Positions 2 to 25,788 of a stretch of DNA of 36,882 nucleotides are shown here, piece by piece. The notes beneath the pieces were generated by a model, which made no database searches, was not told the DNA's origin, and was given only the letters and a program-made list of their open reading frames with translations. How positions within the stretch are numbered: position 1 is the stretch's first letter; every line of letters starts with the position of its first letter. The stretch spans positions 1-36,882 of the forward strand of contig WFTO01000222.1 of the NCBI GenBank assembly GCA_015485435.1, written 5' to 3'. This DNA comes from Anaerolineae bacterium (lineage in GTDB: Bacteria; Chloroflexota; Anaerolineae; J102). Made by a program: the position numbers and the translations under genes.

Positions 2-1435
2 TCCGGCAGCCTCAGCAACCGGCCCGGCCTCTCCCGCCTGCTGCGGGATGCGGACGCGGGCCTGTTCGACGTGGTCATCGTGCACAAAGTGGATCGCTTC
101 TTCCGCGATCTGGCCGGTTTCCTCAACGCCCTGCGCCAGCTCAATGACGCGGGCGTGGCCTTCCTCTCGGTGCGGGAGAATATCGACTTCACCTCGGCCT
201 GGGGCAAGCTGGCCCTGGTCATCCTGGCCACCATCGCCGAGATCTTCTTGGACATCCTCAAGGAGGAGACCCAGAAGGGCAAGCGCCAGCGGGTGCGCAA
301 GGGCCTGTGGAACGGCTCCGTCCCCACCGGCTACTGCCAGGGTCTCTGCGCCAATTGCACCGATCCCAACGGCCCCGGCTACTGCCCCTATGTGGGCCGG
401 GAGAATGTGGGCGACGGTCAGAACCTGGTGCTGCATCCCATCGACAGCGTGGCCATCGCCAAGATGTTCGAGTGGTACGCCACGGGCGAGTATTCCGATG
501 CGGACATCGCGGACGCGTTTAATCACTACCAGTATGAGCTGCCCGACGGCGGCACGGTGACCTTCCGCACCCGCGGCCGCGGGCATGGCAGCAAGTATCC
601 GCCTGGCCCCTACGGCAAGGACACGGTGCGCAGCATTTTGCAGCGCAAGTTCTACACCGGCGTCGTCACCTACAAGGGCGAGGAGATGCCGGGCAATCAC
701 CCGGCCATCATCGACCTGGAACTCTTCGACAAGGTGCAGGCGATGCGCAAGCTGCGGGGGAACAATCCTCGCCGCCGCAAGAACGGCAGCAAGCCCACCC
801 GCGTCTTCCCCCTCACCGGCATCCTGCGCTGCGACGAATGCGGGGGGCGCATGCGGGGCCAGGCCGGCAGCAACGGCGCCCGCTACTACGCCTGCGTCAA
901 CCGCCTGCAGAAGAAGACCGCCTGCACCCAGCCTATGGTGCCTGCTGATGATATCGAGGCCCAGGTCGCGAATCTGATCCTCTCCATGCCCCAGGGCGAG
1001 GGCTGGCGGGAGGATGTGCTGGCCCACGCCTTCCCCGATGAGGACCTGCTGGCCACGGAAGAGCGGGCCGCAGCCCTCAAGGCCCGCTACGACCGCCTGG
1101 TGGAGCTGTATGTCTCCGGCAAGATCGACCGCGAGCAATTCGACCGCGAGGAAACCGACTATCGCCGGGAGATGGCGCTGTTGACAGCAGGCAAAAAGCG
1201 TGATATGTTGGAGATGGTTCAGCTTGTCCTGGACTTCCCCGACTTGTGGGACAACGCTGACGATTTACAAAAGAAAAAACTGTTGCAGCGTTTCTTTGCA
1301 ACAGTTCATGTCAAGGGCAAAAAAATCGAGGGCGTTCAGCCTGTGAAAAGCTTCTACGCCCTCTTTGAGTATTGCTGCTACGGGAGCGACGGGAATCGAA
1401 CCCGCGATCTCCGGCTTGACAGGCCGGCGTGTTAA
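2..1435 (+). CDS. Large serine recombinase (site-specific integrase), 5' end outside window
   Basis: The frame is open from base 2, so the N-terminal part carrying the catalytic serine lies left of the window; the GTG at 71 in the ORF track is internal. The visible part starts in the end of the resolvase domain (NRPGLSRLL, then VDRFFRDL). It continues through a recombinase DNA-binding domain (GLWNGSVPTGY to about residue 240 of the track ORF), a zinc ribbon (CDECGGRM ... YYACVNR ... C) and a charged helical stretch typical of large serine integrases. It catalyses strand exchange between att sites by a phosphoserine mechanism (family knowledge). Two oddities are visible: an inserted Cys-rich segment (CQGLCANC ... 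GYC) in the DNA-binding domain, and a C-terminus (GNRTRDLRLDRPAC) that is antisense translation of a tRNA-Asp gene, the stop codon lying inside that tRNA. The first ~1180 bases are clearly more GC-rich than the tail and downstream DNA, consistent with an acquired element. Confidence 0.93.
   Translation, partial: SGSLSNRPGLSRLLRDADAGLFDVVIVHKVDRFFRDLAGFLNALRQLNDAGVAFLSVRENIDFTSAWGKLALVILATIAEIFLDILKEETQKGKRQRVRKGLWNGSVPTGYCQGLCANCTDPNGPGYCPYVGRENVGDGQNLVLHPIDSVAIAKMFEWYATGEYSDADIADAFNHYQYELPDGGTVTFRTRGRGHGSKYPPGPYGKDTVRSILQRKFYTGVVTYKGEEMPGNHPAIIDLELFDKVQAMRKLRGNNPRRRKNGSKPTRVFPLTGILRCDECGGRMRGQAGSNGARYYACVNRLQKKTACTQPMVPADDIEAQVANLILSMPQGEGWREDVLAHAFPDEDLLATEERAAALKARYDRLVELYVSGKIDREQFDREETDYRREMALLTAGKKRDMLEMVQLVLDFPDLWDNADDLQKKKLLQRFFATVHVKGKKIEGVQPVKSFYALFEYCCYGSDGNRTRDLRLDRPAC
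1319..1363 (-). terminator. Intrinsic terminator of tRNA-Asp, embedded in the recombinase coding sequence
   Basis: On the minus strand a perfect 8-bp stem (GAGGGCGT / ACGCCCTC, arms 1356-1363 and 1328-1335) is followed by a run of seven T (the A run at 1319-1325 on the plus strand). It begins 18 bases past the 3' end of the tRNA-Asp gene. On the plus strand the hairpin is not followed by a T run, so it acts in one direction only. The same bases encode the last ~40 residues of the recombinase. Confidence 0.8.
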
Positions 1436-1453
1436 CCGCTACACTACGCCCCC
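1381..1453 (-). tRNA. tRNA-Asp (anticodon GTC)
   Basis: The reverse complement folds into a complete cloverleaf: acceptor GGGGGCG with CGCTCCC (one G-U pair), D-stem GTGT/ACAC, anticodon stem CCGGC/GCCGG around loop CTGTCAA with anticodon GTC, variable AGATC, and T-stem GCGGG/CCCGT around TTCGATT. The discriminator base is G, as expected for tRNA-Asp. The CCA end is not encoded (TAG follows). The serine recombinase gene runs into the 3' half from the opposite strand, so this tRNA is the likely attachment site of the element to the left. Confidence 0.96.
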
Positions 1454-12649: not shown

Positions 12650-13273
12650 TCAAGAGGAGGATGCTGTGCCCGAATTCGCCTGGGAGCTGGAATCGTCGTG
12701 ATGGTTTGGGGGCGAATCCCTCCCCTCAGTCACTTCGAGGAGTTTGTCAACGCTGGCCATCAGCTTTTCAACCTGGCTTTCCAAGGTTTTGATATCTTCA
12801 TGTGTGGGAACGTTGAGCTTATTCAAGGCGGCATCTAGCTTGATGTCGGGCAAGAGCCCTTTGGCCGTTGCGGCTGCACCTCCGTAAAGTTCCTTGCGCA
12901 GACGATCCGCTTCTTCTTGTGCAAGTTCACCTTTAGCAACCAACGCTTCAATGCGATGATCGATTTCCTCTTCTAGAAGATGCAAAACGTTGATGGAAGA
13001 CGAAACAGACTTTTTGAGGTAGTCGATGGGCGCGCTTCCGGTTCGAATTAAGGCGGTGAGGATTGACTTGGGCAAAAAGCCCGAACGTTTTTTCTCCCGT
13101 TCAAAAATAATTTGCGACAGGGTGATGCTGGTAAGATCCTCACCCGATTCATGATCAATCACCTGGATATCTTCACCCTGTTGAATCATCATGGCGATAT
13201 CATCTAGCGTGACATACCGTTTGCTGGCCAGATCGTATAATTTTCGGTTGGGATAGCGTTTAATGGTTCGCAT
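12650..13273 (-). CDS. PHA accumulation regulator-like DNA-binding protein with phasin-like coiled-coil tail
   Basis: A 207-residue protein. The N-terminus (IKRYPNRKLYDLASKRYVTLDDIA ... IDHESGEDLTSITLSQII) is the DNA-binding domain of PhaR-type polyhydroxyalkanoate accumulation regulators (about residues 3-62). The rest resembles granule-associated phasins: a helical middle with VAKGELAQEEADRLRKEL (about 115-135) and NVPTHEDIKTLESQVEKL (about 158-175), ending in a Ser/Asn-rich tail. The start is ATG 13273, with AAAGGA ten bases upstream. The longer track ORF (ATG 13312) is excluded because that codon overlaps the -10 of the promoter. In known systems PhaR represses phasin genes and binds granules; having both parts in one chain is the notable point. 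It is followed by the patatin gene. Confidence 0.88.
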   Translation of the reverse strand: MRTIKRYPNRKLYDLASKRYVTLDDIAMMIQQGEDIQVIDHESGEDLTSITLSQIIFEREKKRSGFLPKSILTALIRTGSAPIDYLKKSVSSSINVLHLLEEEIDHRIEALVAKGELAQEEADRLRKELYGGAAATAKGLLPDIKLDAALNKLNVPTHEDIKTLESQVEKLMASVDKLLEVTEGRDSPPNHHDDSSSQANSGTASSS

Positions 13274-13355: not shown

Positions 13356-13787
13356 GAAGGGAAAAACAAAGCATTGCCAATGCAACAAATAGTAACACCC
13401 GACCGGCGCACAAGTTCCTCTGACAACATTGCCTCGACACAAAAAATGATCGTACGCTCGCGCCAAACAGGGGCATAAGGGACTTCATTTATCCGCCCGC
13501 CATGGATATGCGTCGCCACTCAGTTTGCGGCATTCGGAACAAGGAACACTGGGGGCAGCATGTTCTCGTAATCATCTATGCGTCCAGTCTGCCCTTTCTC
13601 AAATAACCCTTTTCCTCGATAGACCTATTTGTGACCGTGCCCCCGTCATTGTCACTGCAAAGTCACTATAACCCCATTCCGCGACTAACGTCTGCACCCG
13701 TTCTAAGAATCTGGACACGATGGATTTTCATTCGCATCGGCCTGGACAAGCCCGCCATTGAAATGTTCTAAAAATTGAATGAATAGC
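13356..13787. other. Gene-free spacer upstream of the PhaR-like gene
   Basis: About 430 bases with no frame that has a ribosome site and protein-like composition. I recognise no RNA gene. The spacer separates the 5' end of the PhaR-like operon from the 3' end of the respiratory operon. Confidence 0.5.
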
Positions 13788-13867
13788 ACGCTGATGACGC
13801 AGAGTAGAAAGGGAAAATAAGAAAAAATCTGCGAAAACACAGTCCGTTGCATCTACGTCATCAGCGT
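13788..13867. repeat. 80-base element bounded by a perfect 12-bp inverted repeat
   Basis: ACGCTGATGACG (13788-13799) and CGTCATCAGCGT (13856-13867) are perfect reverse complements separated by 56 bases. The interior contains the terminator-like hairpin at 13822-13842. No target-site duplication is visible at the edges (AGC versus TCC), which argues against a recent MITE insertion. Confidence 0.6.
13822..13842 (-). terminator. Probable terminator of the respiratory (ttr-like/torD) operon
   Basis: On the minus strand, the stem CTGTG / CGCAG (one T-G pair) with a TTTT loop is followed by ATTTTTTCTTATTTT. It lies about 145 bases past the torD-like stop codon. The stem is short (5 bp), but the T tract is strong. 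Confidence 0.5.
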
Positions 13868-13986
13868 TCCCATGGTCATCGGTATCGACGCATCACGCCT
13901 CAGTCGGACCCACGTCCCACCACTGAATCCACGTTCTTACTGCCACGAGATGATCCTTGCGCCATGATTGTCCGTTGCAACGCTCA

Positions 13987-14586
13987 TCAATCCTCCGTCA
14001 ATAAGCCCAACACCAGAGAGCGGGTGAGTGTTCCCAACAGACGATAGTGGGAGGTGCTGGCATTTTCGGCGAGCTGACGACCAAAATCGGGCAGCCAACG
14101 AGCGAGATGATTGCGGATGAAATACTGCAAAGCACTCTCAACAGCGGGATCTGGGACGTTGGCATTGGTGCGCAGCAACGCGCTCAGACAGGCCAGCTCC
14201 ACACCTGCATGATCCGGCGCATCCAAATGCAGCCAGTGTTCATCCATATGCAAAGTGGCAGGATCGAAACTCACAGACGCGTAAAAGGCGGCCACCTGAT
14301 GGGTGATGGGGCCCCATAGACGGCGGGTGCGCTGAGCCGATTCGTAAGGAGGTAGATAGCGCCCCGAAACAGGCACGAAAAAAAGCGCGTCGTAATCCGC
14401 CCTCAAGTCGGGCAAAGGGTCCGCCTCGTTTGAGAAATCATCAGTGAGGCCCAGCCCCTCATGCAACACTCCGATGGCCTCCGTGAAAGCGATCGTCAGT
14501 CTGCCATTGGGGCGATGAAGATACATGGCAGCCAGCATATCCGCGGCCCGAGCGTAAAAACGTTGTTCGTGTTGATTCATAGTCAT
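13987..14586 (-). CDS. TorD/DmsD-family chaperone for a molybdoenzyme
   Basis: A small all-helical cytoplasmic protein of about 199 residues. The conserved stretch DYDALFFVPVSGRYLPPYES (about 63-82) and the following histidine-rich MDEHWLHLDAPDHAGVELACL are typical of the TorD/NarJ family. These chaperones help insert the Mo-bis-MGD cofactor and hold back TAT export until the enzyme is mature. Its gene lies directly after the molybdopterin catalytic subunit, its expected client. The start is probably ATG 14586 or 14580 (MNQHEQ); the track start at 14622 falls inside a large hairpin and gives a poor N-terminus. No clear Shine-Dalgarno is visible, so its translation may depend on the intercistronic structure. 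Confidence 0.88.
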   Translation of the reverse strand: MTMNQHEQRFYARAADMLAAMYLHRPNGRLTIAFTEAIGVLHEGLGLTDDFSNEADPLPDLRADYDALFFVPVSGRYLPPYESAQRTRRLWGPITHQVAAFYASVSFDPATLHMDEHWLHLDAPDHAGVELACLSALLRTNANVPDPAVESALQYFIRNHLARWLPDFGRQLAENASTSHYRLLGTLTRSLVLGLLTED

Positions 14587-14599
14587 GAGAACCATCGAG

Positions 14600-14648
14600 G
14601 CCAGGCCGCCAGACTCTGCCAACCAGCAGAGTCGCGAGGCGGCCTGGC
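14600..14648 (-). repeat. Large intercistronic hairpin between the catalytic subunit and the TorD-like gene
   Basis: The lower stem is a perfect 11-bp repeat (GCCAGGCCGCC / GGCGGCCTGGC). After a small asymmetric internal loop (A / GCGA), a second perfect 8-bp stem (GACTCTGC / GCAGAGTC) closes a 6-base loop. It starts nine bases after the ttrA-like stop codon and ends 13 bases before the torD-like ATG. No T run follows on the minus strand, so a role in mRNA stability or in lowering chaperone synthesis is more likely than full termination. Confidence 0.85.
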
Positions 14649-14657
14649 GTAAAGGGA

Positions 14658-17600
14658 TCAGATTTTTTCGACTTTGACGGGGATTGCCTGTCGAGCATTG
14701 GAGCCGACCACAAAGTCAGCCAGGGTGGAAAATCCTTTCCGCGAGGGATCGGCAATGCCCAGGAGGTTGCTGGCGACGCCTTTGCCTCGCAAACCGCTGG
14801 CGTGCCACACTTTGTTCTCAATGGTCTCATCTCGGGCTCCCAGTCCCCAGTGACCATAGCCATGTTCAATGCCCACAGTACCGGGCCGAATGCCTTTGCG
14901 CACCGAAATCACACCTTCGACGCTGCCGCCAGGACTGGTGACCCGCACCCGATCGCCGCTACGCAAACCAAGCTTGATCGCATCACTTTGATGCATGACG
15001 ATGGCATTGCTGGGTTGTAATGCGGAAAGTCGTGGCGCACCTATGGACGGCGGAGACATCAATTGCGATTTTGTGGAGACCATTTTGAAGGGCCATTCCG
15101 AAGGAGGATACACTTCATCGATGGGGGTCTCATCAGCGAAAACAGGCTCTCGCCAGGTGGGAACGCCGACGAAGCGTTTACCGTTCATGCTGTTACGAGT
15201 CGTGCCCAATTTCTCATTGTAAATTTGTAGGGGTTTGCCGTAGCGATGAGTGAGCCAGTCACCTTGATACGCGTACTTTTCATCCTCAAAACGACCGCCA
15301 CGAGCCAGCACGTAAGCAACCTTGCGCTGTTCTTCCGGCTTGAGCACTGAAGTGATCTTGTCCCATATGCGCTCCACCCCCGTGAGCTGAAGTTCTTCAT
15401 CTGAAATATCGGGGACGGGTTCTTTGTCGAAGGCGGTATTGGCCGTAATACGCAGGAACCAATCTTCGGGATGGTTGAGTGGATGCAGGTTGCCATCCGC
15501 ATCAGGGATGGCGTCATCACCGAATCCAGGTAGCCCCATCTTCCTGGCTAGGGCGATGAGAAAGCTTTCCATACAAATGGGATCGCCATCAGGGGTTTTG
15601 GCCAGCGGGGGTTCCACCACGGGCCAGCGCACTGAATTCACCTTGGTGAGATACGCGGCCCAAGGATGCGCGTTGCCCCAGGTTTCGTAGAGCACCGTGT
15701 CAGGGACAATGTAATCGGCATAGGCGCTGGTCTCGTTGATGAAGGGATCGATGGCAATGATTAGGGGAATGATTTTGGGGTCAGCCATGGCTTTTTTGGC
15801 GCTCTCAAACAGGCCCGATTGCCCATAGAAGGGATTCGTGTTCCAAAAGATCATGGCTTTGATGGGATAAGGGTAGCCGCTGAGCGCGCCGTTGAGATAT
15901 TCGGGCTGGATAGCCATAGAGAATGGATACCAGGGCGCTTGTGCGGGATAAGGGTTTTGTCCTGCATCCTTTTTTCTCTTGAACTCGGTTGTTTTCTCAT
16001 AAGGAAAGCCACGACGACTGATGCGCACACCTTTGGGTTTGACTTTGCCCTCGAATTTGACCAGATTGTAGCGCGGTTTGGGCCCAAGATCTGCATAATG
16101 TCCGCCTCCAGCGCTGGTTCCACCCTTCCAGTTGAGATTACCGACCAGAGCATTGAGCATAACGATGGCGTAGGCGGTGTAAAATCCGGTGCTGTGCATG
16201 GTGCCCCCGTGGCAGTCAGCCACTGCTTTGCGACCATGGCTGGTGAATTCGTCGGCCAATTCCTCGATGGTTTCTACGGGGATGCCGCATCCGGCGCTGT
16301 ATTCTTCCAACGTACGGGAAAAGGCTTCTTCTTTTAACAGCTGCAGGCTGGTTTTCACAGCGACGTTTTCGCCGTTGATCGCCACAACGCCATCGTAAAA
16401 GAGGAGGGCAGGACCTGTGGCGTTGGCGTGGGCGACAGGCTGTCCGCTAGCTTCGTCAATAACCACAAAAGTGTCATTTTCCCCCTCTTCGGCCAGCCCC
16501 ACCTGTGATCCGCGCAAGAATTTTCCGAAATCCGGTCGATCCTCGTCCACGATGACCAGATGGGTGGCATTGGACCAGCTAGGCTCACCCGCAGCTTTGG
16601 CAGCATCTGCGTTGGGTTGGGCCAGGAAATGCGCATTATACCGTTCGTTCTCCAATATCCAACGGATCATACCCATGGCCAGAGCTGCATCGGTGCCTGG
16701 CTTCACCGGCACCCAGCGGCTGCGCGCCCCTGCAGCAATACTATCAGCATTGGTCAACACCGGATCCACCACTACATAGGTGAGCTTGCCGTCGCTTCGT
16801 CCCTCGGCCACCATCTTGCCCGAACGTTTGAAGGGGTTGCCGGCGTTGGCGGGCGCCGTGCCGATGGTGAGCAAAAATTCGGTGTTCTTGAAATCGGGTT
16901 TGAGATGAGGATACTTCTTCCAATCATCCAGCAATGCGGCATAGCCCGCTCGCATGGAAAGACCGCAATTGCCACGATGCCCCGTGAAATTGATGCTGCC
17001 AAAAGAAAGCACAGAGAAGCGTTTGGCCAATCCCAATCGTCCTTCCTTGAAACCAGCGATGAAGGCGAGTTGATTGGCTTTAGGGCCCAACTCCGGCGCT
17101 TCAGGGTCGATAGGGGTCTCCAGGTCGCGAATGGCGCGTAAACCATCCACATGGCCTTCGCCAAACAGATCGCCACCTTCGACCACCTCTTCCAGCAGCT
17201 GCTCGAAGGAGATAGGTTGCCATTGGCCGCTGCCGCGTGGTCCCACTCGTTTGAGCGGTGTCAGCACCCGATAGGGATCATAGAGTTTGTCCAATACGGC
17301 GTTGCCCCGCCCACATGCGGTGGAACGATGCTTCATGCCCTTATCCTGGTAGGCGCTAAGCATCAGGTAACTTTCTTTGATGGGGGTCTGGTAATCTAAG
17401 AAGGGGTCAGCGGAGAGGATATGATAGGGATTGCCGCTGACGCGCAACACTTTACCTGTCTGTTTGTCCACTCGTACGCGCACACCGCACAGCGTCGTGC
17501 AACCAACGCACACCGTATTGGCCAGATATTGATCTGGGTTGGGAGTCACCTTGCCCGTCTGTCGGTCTACGGTGAATTCCGGCTTGGGCGCATTTCCCGC

Positions 17601-17738
17601 CAGGGGGTCCAGAGGGTGAGCGCCAGCCCACCAGCCCTTACTGATGCCCTTAAGCGTGCTGGCATAGCCTGCACCAAACACTGTGAGCGCACCAGCAGCG
17701 CCCAACGCTTTGAAGAAATCACGTCGATTAAGAGTCAT
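14658..17738 (-). CDS. ttrA: Molybdopterin oxidoreductase catalytic subunit, TtrA-like (tetrathionate reductase type)
   Basis: A 1026-residue member of the DMSO-reductase family, exported folded by the TAT pathway (signal NRRDFFKALGAAGALTVFGAG). An Fe-S site is formed by C77, C80, C84 and a distant C142 (STACGRGNA); this long gap to the fourth cysteine is typical of TtrA and its relatives. The stretch PLKRVGPRGSGQW, then GGDLFGEGHVDGLRAI, is as in TtrA. RGNCGLSMRAGY probably contains the Mo-ligand region, and the C-terminal molybdopterin-binding domain starts near residue 900. The likely reaction is reduction of tetrathionate to thiosulfate outside the membrane; related enzymes reduce selenate or arsenate, so the substrate is not certain. 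The start ATG overlaps the ttrC-like stop (ATGA), with GGAGG in place. Neighbours TtrB, TtrC, a TorD chaperone and a sensor module support the call. Confidence 0.88.
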   Translation of the reverse strand: MTLNRRDFFKALGAAGALTVFGAGYASTLKGISKGWWAGAHPLDPLAGNAPKPEFTVDRQTGKVTPNPDQYLANTVCVGCTTLCGVRVRVDKQTGKVLRVSGNPYHILSADPFLDYQTPIKESYLMLSAYQDKGMKHRSTACGRGNAVLDKLYDPYRVLTPLKRVGPRGSGQWQPISFEQLLEEVVEGGDLFGEGHVDGLRAIRDLETPIDPEAPELGPKANQLAFIAGFKEGRLGLAKRFSVLSFGSINFTGHRGNCGLSMRAGYAALLDDWKKYPHLKPDFKNTEFLLTIGTAPANAGNPFKRSGKMVAEGRSDGKLTYVVVDPVLTNADSIAAGARSRWVPVKPGTDAALAMGMIRWILENERYNAHFLAQPNADAAKAAGEPSWSNATHLVIVDEDRPDFGKFLRGSQVGLAEEGENDTFVVIDEASGQPVAHANATGPALLFYDGVVAINGENVAVKTSLQLLKEEAFSRTLEEYSAGCGIPVETIEELADEFTSHGRKAVADCHGGTMHSTGFYTAYAIVMLNALVGNLNWKGGTSAGGGHYADLGPKPRYNLVKFEGKVKPKGVRISRRGFPYEKTTEFKRKKDAGQNPYPAQAPWYPFSMAIQPEYLNGALSGYPYPIKAMIFWNTNPFYGQSGLFESAKKAMADPKIIPLIIAIDPFINETSAYADYIVPDTVLYETWGNAHPWAAYLTKVNSVRWPVVEPPLAKTPDGDPICMESFLIALARKMGLPGFGDDAIPDADGNLHPLNHPEDWFLRITANTAFDKEPVPDISDEELQLTGVERIWDKITSVLKPEEQRKVAYVLARGGRFEDEKYAYQGDWLTHRYGKPLQIYNEKLGTTRNSMNGKRFVGVPTWREPVFADETPIDEVYPPSEWPFKMVSTKSQLMSPPSIGAPRLSALQPSNAIVMHQSDAIKLGLRSGDRVRVTSPGGSVEGVISVRKGIRPGTVGIEHGYGHWGLGARDETIENKVWHASGLRGKGVASNLLGIADPSRKGFSTLADFVVGSNARQAIPVKVEKI

Positions 17739-18952
17739 TGTACGCCTCCTTTGGGCAAAACAACAACTTGATCTTGAGCATCGAAAGCATCGTTTACAAC
17801 GTCATCTTCCGGTTCAGCCGCATCATAGTTGCGCCACGGCAAGAACCAGGTAAAAAGAATAAAAAGGAAAAGCCAGAACGCCCAGTTAGAAATCACCTGC
17901 ATTACCCCTTTGCTACCCCAAAATTCGGGGTGATATTGGTAAAACCCGGCTGTGGTCTTGGGAATCTCCTGACCCCCAATAACCGTGTCCCACCGAAACA
18001 ACCACACACCAGCGATGGTGACCAGCGCCGAAAGTATGAGGAGGGGACGGATGCGACGCAAGCGAGGAATGAGCATCACAAGGGCAGGGATCATCAGGGA
18101 AAGCACAATCTCAATAAGCACAGTCTCCGTGAAGCGCTCCCTAAACATGAAGCGGATGACCTCCAGATAGGAGCCATAGGAATAAAAGAAACCAATGCTA
18201 TACCAAAAGAGACGGATGGTAAGGTCGGTGATGATAGTCCAGCCCAACAATACGGCTAAGCGGTCGATGAGAGTCCAGTTAATGCGACCCTTCTCATTCC
18301 GCACCATAAGCCAGGTCAAAACCAACATAAAAGCGATACCGCTGACCATAGCCGATACCAGAAAGATAAGGGGCATAAGCGGAGTGTGCCACAAAGGCCG
18401 GGCCCGCACCACGCCCAGTATGTAGCCAGTGTAGCCATGCACCGCGATGGCGAAGGGAATGCCGATGGCTCCCAAAATGTAACTCCATTTGTGATCCCGT
18501 TTTTCGGTTTCGGATGTCACCTCATGAGAGCCCAGGGCCAGGAACGCATAGAATTTTTGTTTGCTGCCAGAAGCTTGCTGGGCTTTGCGGGCAAAACCGG
18601 CCCGAAATGCGTAGACGCCTTCCAGTGCGATAAGCAATGGATATGTCGTCAATAAAAAGACACCCCAACTCATAGGCGATGTGACATGGGTGTGATAAAA
18701 CAGGGAATAAAAACGCCCCTGCTGCTCCAAATCAGCGATCAGATTCAATGGAGCGGCTATCAGCACCGTAAAGGCCACGATGAGTGAGAGTTTGGCAATA
18801 GGACGATAGTGCTCATCGCCGAAGACATAGGTGAGGGCAGAAATGAGAAATGCGGCCGCACTCAGACCCGTAAAAAAGAAGTATTGGGGAATGGCTAAGC
18901 TCCAATCAACGCCATGGAGTGCGTTGATGATTTCAATAATGTACGGATTCAT
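17735..18952 (-). CDS. ttrC: NrfD/PsrC-family membrane anchor and quinol oxidase subunit, TtrC-like
   Basis: A 405-residue polytopic membrane protein of the NrfD family with about nine or ten hydrophobic segments, starting at WSLAIPQYFFFTGLSAAAFLISAL and including HGYTGYILGVVRARPLWHTPLMPLIFLVSA. In this family the protein oxidises quinol in the membrane and passes electrons to the Fe-S subunit. It is longer than Salmonella TtrC (about 340 residues); the extra length includes a soluble loop (about 120-155) and an acidic C-terminal tail (AAEPEDDVVNDAFDAQDQ). The start ATG overlaps the TtrB-like stop (ATGA), and AAAGGAG precedes it. Both overlaps suggest translational coupling across the B-C-A subunits. 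Confidence 0.88.
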   Translation of the reverse strand: MNPYIIEIINALHGVDWSLAIPQYFFFTGLSAAAFLISALTYVFGDEHYRPIAKLSLIVAFTVLIAAPLNLIADLEQQGRFYSLFYHTHVTSPMSWGVFLLTTYPLLIALEGVYAFRAGFARKAQQASGSKQKFYAFLALGSHEVTSETEKRDHKWSYILGAIGIPFAIAVHGYTGYILGVVRARPLWHTPLMPLIFLVSAMVSGIAFMLVLTWLMVRNEKGRINWTLIDRLAVLLGWTIITDLTIRLFWYSIGFFYSYGSYLEVIRFMFRERFTETVLIEIVLSLMIPALVMLIPRLRRIRPLLILSALVTIAGVWLFRWDTVIGGQEIPKTTAGFYQYHPEFWGSKGVMQVISNWAFWLFLFILFTWFLPWRNYDAAEPEDDVVNDAFDAQDQVVVLPKGGVQ

Positions 18953-19698
18953 GGTTGCGCCAGCTCCTTTTTCAGCTCTTCTTCGGTCCAGGGAACGGGT
19001 TCGCCGTTGACCTTGGCCTGAAGATAATCACTCAGACCGATGTAAAAAACCCGAGGATCGGTGCCCATTTCTGGTTTAAGCACCTGTGTGGCATGTTCTT
19101 TCAACAGTTGATTGATCTCGCTATTGGGATCGTTAAGATCGCCAAAAATGCGAGCTCCACCCACACAGGTCTCCACACAGGCGGGCAGCAAACCCGCCTC
19201 AGTGCGATGCACGCAGAATGTGCATTTGTCTGCCGTGTGGGTTTCAGGGTTGATGTAACGAGCATCGTATGGGCAGGCCTGCACACAATAAGCGCACCCG
19301 ATACAAACTTCGTTGTCCACCACCACTATGCCATCGCCACGTTTGTATGTGGCCTGCGTGGGACACACCTCCACGCAGGGGGGATTTTCGCAATGGTTGC
19401 ATAGGCGGGGCAGGGTGGCGCGACGGGCCGTATCGCCAAAATCGATCTCGTAGGTGGAAACGATTGTGCGATGGTAGCCCAGGGGCACATCATTTTCCAT
19501 GGAGCAAGCGACGCTGCACGCTTGGCAACCGATACACTTGCGCAGATCGATCAGCATGCCCCAACGGTGGCTGCTTTCACTGGGTTCATCAGGGTTGGCC
19601 GCCATCGCCTCCTGTTTTGGAACCATGACGGCCGTTGTCGCGGCAACAGCAGCCCCGCCTACCATGAATTTAAGAAATTCGCGGCGGTCTGTCTTCAT
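18949..19698 (-). CDS. ttrB: Four-cluster ferredoxin-type electron transfer subunit, TtrB-like
   Basis: A 249-residue protein with a twin-arginine signal (TDRREFLKFMVGGAAVAA). Sixteen cysteines lie in four groups expected to bind four [4Fe-4S] clusters: CIGCQACSVAC, CNHCENPPCVEVC, CIGCAYCVQAC and CTFCVHR with ACVETC. It would relay electrons from the membrane quinol subunit to the molybdenum site on the outer face of the membrane. It is the first structural gene of the B-C-A set, with AGGAGG five bases before ATG. A palindrome and a TACAAT -10 lie in the 125-base gap behind the regulator gene, so it probably has its own regulated promoter. Confidence 0.9.
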   Translation of the reverse strand: MKTDRREFLKFMVGGAAVAATTAVMVPKQEAMAANPDEPSESSHRWGMLIDLRKCIGCQACSVACSMENDVPLGYHRTIVSTYEIDFGDTARRATLPRLCNHCENPPCVEVCPTQATYKRGDGIVVVDNEVCIGCAYCVQACPYDARYINPETHTADKCTFCVHRTEAGLLPACVETCVGGARIFGDLNDPNSEINQLLKEHATQVLKPEMGTDPRVFYIGLSDYLQAKVNGEPVPWTEEELKKELAQP

Positions 19699-25734: not shown

Positions 25735-25788
25735 CTGGTGCATCGCATCCTGTGCGGTCCTCACCCCTACATGGGTGCGATGCACCAG
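25735..25788 (+). repeat. Long intercistronic hairpin between binding-protein and permease genes
   Basis: CTGGTGCATCGCA (25735-25747) and TGCGATGCACCAG (25776-25788) are a perfect 13-bp inverted repeat, and the stem can extend inward (TCC/GGG, then TGT/ACA past a bulge). No T run follows. In importer operons such a hairpin often protects the binding-protein message and lowers expression of the membrane parts. Confidence 0.8.

Follow-up and report, generated by a model that had tools for sequence, protein, structure and literature searches.

A strong predicted RNA hairpin lies between a ttrA-like gene and a torD-like chaperone gene in an Anaerolineae bacterium

Introduction

The intercistronic stem-loop of the puf operon reportedly has a role that was shown by experiment. 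At the ends of upstream genes in E. coli operons, structures without a U tract stop 3'-5' exonucleases and stabilize that part of the operon, malE-malF being the classical protective hairpin, to which transcriptome-wide work has added more (PMC5927463). At galE-galT, termination depends on Rho, and a hairpin then fixes the 3' end (PMC9239205). Structure placed directly past a stop codon correlates negatively with translational coupling (PMC12548453). TorD/NarJ-family genes found in ttr operons have been named ttrD (PMC4464133).

Here we describe the ttrA-torD junction of an Anaerolineae bacterium, contained in a 36,882-nt stretch of DNA (the window) from a 3.45-Mb draft genome (G000). A very strong RNA hairpin between the ttrA-like gene and the chaperone gene is confirmed as a predicted structure. 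With moderate confidence, we read it as a lineage-specific, U-less intercistronic hairpin close to a stop codon, which would shield the ttrBCA mRNA and uncouple translation of the chaperone; a role in setting the ratio of enzyme to chaperone is plausible.

Results

Four genes on the minus strand form an operon-like run, from ttrB through ttrC and ttrA to a TorD/NarJ-family chaperone. The ttrB-like iron-sulfur subunit (18949-19698) is joined by an ATGA overlap to the ttrC-like NrfD-family membrane subunit (17735-18952), which is joined in the same way to the ttrA-like catalytic subunit (14658-17738; 1026 aa, with a twin-arginine signal). From end to end, the ttrA product fits model NF011567 for TtrA at 1179 bits, falling short of the curated cut-off of 1750 bits, and "TtrA-like" is therefore the right label. 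The torD/ttrD-like chaperone (13987-14580; 197 aa, starting at ATG 14580) matches PF02613 with an E value of 3e-17. The nearest named records with an orthologue are Anaerolineae metagenome assemblies.

Between the TGA stop of ttrA (14660-14658) and the chaperone ATG (14580-14578) lies a minus-strand spacer of 77 nt (14581-14657), bounded by the stop position and an orthologue-based start. The hairpin (14600-14648, minus strand) takes up 49 of these nucleotides, its base standing 9 nt past the stop and 19 nt ahead of ATG 14580. As read in the transcript, the 5' arm of the outer stem (14638-14648, GCCAGGCCGCC on the minus strand) forms 11 perfect base pairs with the 3' arm (14600-14610, GGCGGCCTGGC). 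The inner stem adds 8 perfect base pairs between its 3' arm and its 5' arm (14612-14619 and 14626-14633; GACTCTGC/GCAGAGTC), lengthened to 9 in the predicted fold by a U-G pair and closed by the 6-nt loop CAACCA (14620-14625). An asymmetric internal loop, A versus GCGA (1 versus 4 nt), separates the two stems. The 8 nt that follow the outer stem (CCTCGATG) hold 2 T, and no T run. Folding of the 77-nt spacer yields -41.4 kcal/mol, where shuffles give -26.2 +/- 3.1 (z -4.9), with a single dinucleotide shuffle in 5000 as stable as the native spacer; a 131-nt segment around the hairpin gives a folding z of -4.0. Both perfect stems of the two-tier structure described in the earlier note thus hold letter by letter, as does the missing T run, and the profile matches agree with the TtrA-like enzyme and TorD/NarJ-family chaperone named there.

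Orthologous junctions were available from three relatives, a fourth (G001) yielding none as its sequence ends inside ttrA. In G006 (TtrA 86% identical) the two genes are 10 nt apart, and in G034 (81%) they share an ATGA overlap; neither junction has a hairpin. The G008 junction (TtrA 82% identical over the C-terminal end) has a 128-nt spacer with an unrelated hairpin of CGCAAAG units, which belongs to a dispersed palindromic repeat (L021:200-330). The window hairpin is thus absent from all three. Lack of stem conservation had been named in the earlier note as one half of what would refute its proposed role for the hairpin, and the stems are kept in none of the three junctions. Among more distant ttrA homologues, most have no TorD gene adjoining ttrA; where the pair exists, the nominal torD start falls -56 to +24 nt from the ttrA stop, always close or overlapping. 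The tight or overlapping junctions of relatives make it most likely that the ancestral junction was tight, with long structured spacers most likely arising independently in two or more species of the genus. The hairpin, not being conserved, would then have been added in one lineage to a junction that was ancestrally tight. Its absence from all three orthologous junctions also means that the operon works without it, and that selection on the hairpin cannot be shown.

The CGCAAAG family has dozens of matches each in G008 and G001, including one on the ttrA-bearing G001 contig (C618:4847-4926), and shorter ones in G006; the window's own genome has none. That genome carries another palindrome family of short iterated units (GTCAAACGTCATGCGTCA; L136, L150, L176, L181, L184 and L188). 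Downstream of torD, a long inverted repeat spans 13770-13885, and one end of it (37 nt) recurs at five other sites in the genome; the region just past torD holds a dispersed-repeat fragment with 6 matches genome-wide. The window hairpin itself has no second copy in its own genome, where no 10-mers apart from GC-rich words are over-represented, and in 30 relatives there is no other copy, just short, weak matches. Identification as a REP or other dispersed palindromic repeat was rejected for want of a second copy in the genome. No Rfam family scores above its gathering score, the sole match, to mir-345, being due to chance (22.4 bits, where the gathering score is 65).

These comparisons bear on the reading that the palindrome arose or landed in the spacer without being selected for any role, a low requirement for torD making it tolerable. 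The spacer is evidently labile, given the unrelated dispersed-family palindrome at the G008 junction; a repeat fragment also sits just past torD in the window, and the nearest orthologues have no hairpin. Against this, the absence of further copies from the genome and the 30 relatives leaves no recognizable mobile repeat, and both stems are perfect where drift would erode them, unless the palindrome is young. We judge this reading to be on the unlikely side, though a serious contender.

How the chaperone is started matters for any reading of the spacer. Aligned from the first methionine, the torD N-termini are MNQHEQRFYAR (window), MKQESSLTLAR (G006), MNVEQSLARSR (G008) and MNSEEISVWAQ (G034), and the torD start is therefore ATG 14580. 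A longer start at TTG 14622 was ruled out by these N-termini. The earlier note was right that the longer start is wrong; its proof, drawn from the hairpin itself, does not stand, the orthologues deciding the matter. Its remark that torD has no evident ribosome site holds: the best anti-Shine-Dalgarno duplex upstream of ATG 14580 is -1.6 kcal/mol, against strong duplexes of -7.8 to -10.4 kcal/mol for ttrB, ttrC and ttrA. No good Shine-Dalgarno sequence precedes torD in any of the four orthologues, window included (-1.4 to -3.6 kcal/mol). With the weak site common to all four, low chaperone translation would be older than the hairpin and independent of it. Since ttrB, ttrC and ttrA have strong sites and ATGA overlaps, and torD has neither, torD mRNA should be sparsely translated.

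Weak sites in four of four orthologues, two of them closely spaced, make torD appear dependent on coupling. This would suit a hairpin acting as a folded bridge, keeping the ttrA stop near the torD start and letting ribosomes that finish ttrA re-initiate on its far side, and the short flanks on either side of the hairpin base fit such a geometry. Structure past a stop codon, however, reduces coupling (PMC12548453), the 128-nt spacer of G008 has a different structure, and the literature consulted offered no precedent. We consider re-initiation across the hairpin highly improbable.

Transcription termination is another route by which a hairpin could act here. All nine genomes from the window's genus, which are 72-100% complete, lack the Rho RNA-binding domain PF07497, and 11 of 11 genomes from other genera of the family have it. 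The TIGR00767 model agrees on Rho absence for the five genus members that it covers; across the class, 171 of 199 genomes exceed its cut-off. In the sister G016 (locus L247:15482-17365), the gene immediately downstream of rho is phosphoribosyltransferase-like, as judged by eye from the protein sequence; ahead of its G000 counterpart (L136, 77% identical; locus L136:1-720), rho is missing, and the noncoding stretch there carries a palindromic repeat. This looks like loss of Rho at the level of the genus and, as Rho was not found, Rho-dependent polarity at the ttrA-torD junction is unlikely. A canonical intrinsic (Rho-independent) terminator was rejected, there being no U run past the stem and no entry for it in the terminator scan.

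A U-less terminator or attenuator, past which some RNA polymerases but not all would continue into torD, is a looser proposal. In a genus without Rho, termination must be intrinsic or take another route, and the hairpin energy is extreme. Hairpins with T-rich tails do occur in the source genome, however (for example, L187 1992 and L179 2204), and the one described here has no T run, is not listed by the terminator scan and, with its internal loop and CCTCGATG tail, is unlike canonical terminators. Partial termination at the hairpin is accordingly improbable. A broader idea, that strong U-less hairpins past stops partly took over the ending or trimming of operon transcripts in the Rho-less genus, with the window hairpin the strongest, receives the least credence from us.

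The hairpin was also set against gene ends at large, called by the longest-ORF rule, so that some in the sample will be wrong. Of 955 gene ends sampled in four related genomes (G000, G007, G012 and G016), none has a stronger hairpin, and no other reaches -35 kcal/mol or below by a 52-nt measure. Within a 464-kb sample of the source genome that includes the window, hairpins of -28 kcal/mol or lower within about 100 nt past stops number 13 of 353, against 2 of 353 matched coding controls. Seven of the 13 lie between co-directional genes, several of them with no T-rich tail (for instance, L144 5164, L144 2323, L137 1038 and L156 3303). The window hairpin thus stands at the far end of a class rather than alone. 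An excess over coding controls is also present in G016, slight in G012 and missing from G007. Because G007 has no Rho and G016 has it, the idea that Rho loss raised the density of gene-end hairpins receives no consistent support.

Three further features of the window were recorded. A second strong intercistronic inverted repeat (25735-25788, 13 bp perfect) separates the gene for a peptide-binding protein (stop 25709) from that for an ABC permease, a malE-malF-type position. A perfect match to a sigma-70-type promoter (TTGACA, 18 nt, TATAAT; 13340-13311) stands just upstream of a PHA-regulator-like gene. As the match overlaps the first ATG of that ORF (13312), the gene probably starts at an internal ATG near 13273, which is preceded by GAAAGGAC. 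The third is a tRNA-Asp gene (1381-1453, minus strand) into which the 3' end of a serine-recombinase-like ORF (71-1435) runs, an arrangement that suggests an element integrated at the tRNA gene.

Discussion

A shield for the ttrBCA mRNA combined with uncoupled chaperone translation is the reading of the hairpin that we favour. An endonuclease would cut the poorly translated torD part of the operon mRNA, and 3'-5' exonucleases would then stall at the hairpin, letting ttrBCA mRNA outlive torD mRNA. At the same time, the 77 structured nucleotides between stop and start would abolish the stop-start coupling that orthologues keep. Decay barrier and lost coupling together would leave less chaperone relative to enzyme. 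The place of the hairpin 9 nt past the ttrA stop and its lack of a U tract match the protective structures of E. coli operons (PMC5927463), and the excess of strong hairpins past stops in the source genome also speaks for this reading; its absence from the orthologous junctions and the uneven excess among relatives speak against it. The genome encodes a suitable 3'-5' exonuclease, PNPase (990 bits, G000:C351); with PNPase present and Rho not found, a decay barrier is likelier than a Rho route of the galE-galT type. Given that structure past a stop lowers coupling, breaking the ancestral tight junction should further cut chaperone output.

Taken alone, this is a further example of an intercistronic hairpin, set in the respiratory operon of an uncultured branch of its phylum. 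Its close relatives turn it into a natural comparison, in which one gene pair either overlaps, stands 10 nt apart, or is split by a repeat-derived palindrome or by a unique hairpin. From such a set of junctions, the effect of a spacer hairpin on the ratio of enzyme to chaperone could be measured. The apparent genus-wide loss of Rho is of wider interest than the hairpin.

Among known systems, the gene arrangement recalls TtrD of Archaeoglobus fulgidus and the Firmicutes TorD-ttr clade (cited in PMC4464133), where a NarJ/TorD-family gene likewise adjoins ttrABC; the present sequence differs in coming from Anaerolineae and in that the tetrathionate substrate of its enzyme is putative. The E-hairpin of galE (PMC9239205) blocks 3'-5' digestion at a cistron junction, as ours would, although the 3' end there comes from Rho-dependent termination and the window's genus has no detectable Rho. 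With the puf stem-loop (Chen 1988, cited in PMC5927463) the likeness is a large hairpin right past the upstream gene and a proposed setting of subunit ratios through mRNA decay, whereas the role here is putative and the hairpin is missing from sister species. The malE-malF element (Newbury 1987, in PMC5927463) is a repeated REP, and the hairpin described here is single-copy, with an effect that we infer; the two share their place between co-directional genes, the lack of a U tract and an upstream product that is needed in excess of the downstream one.
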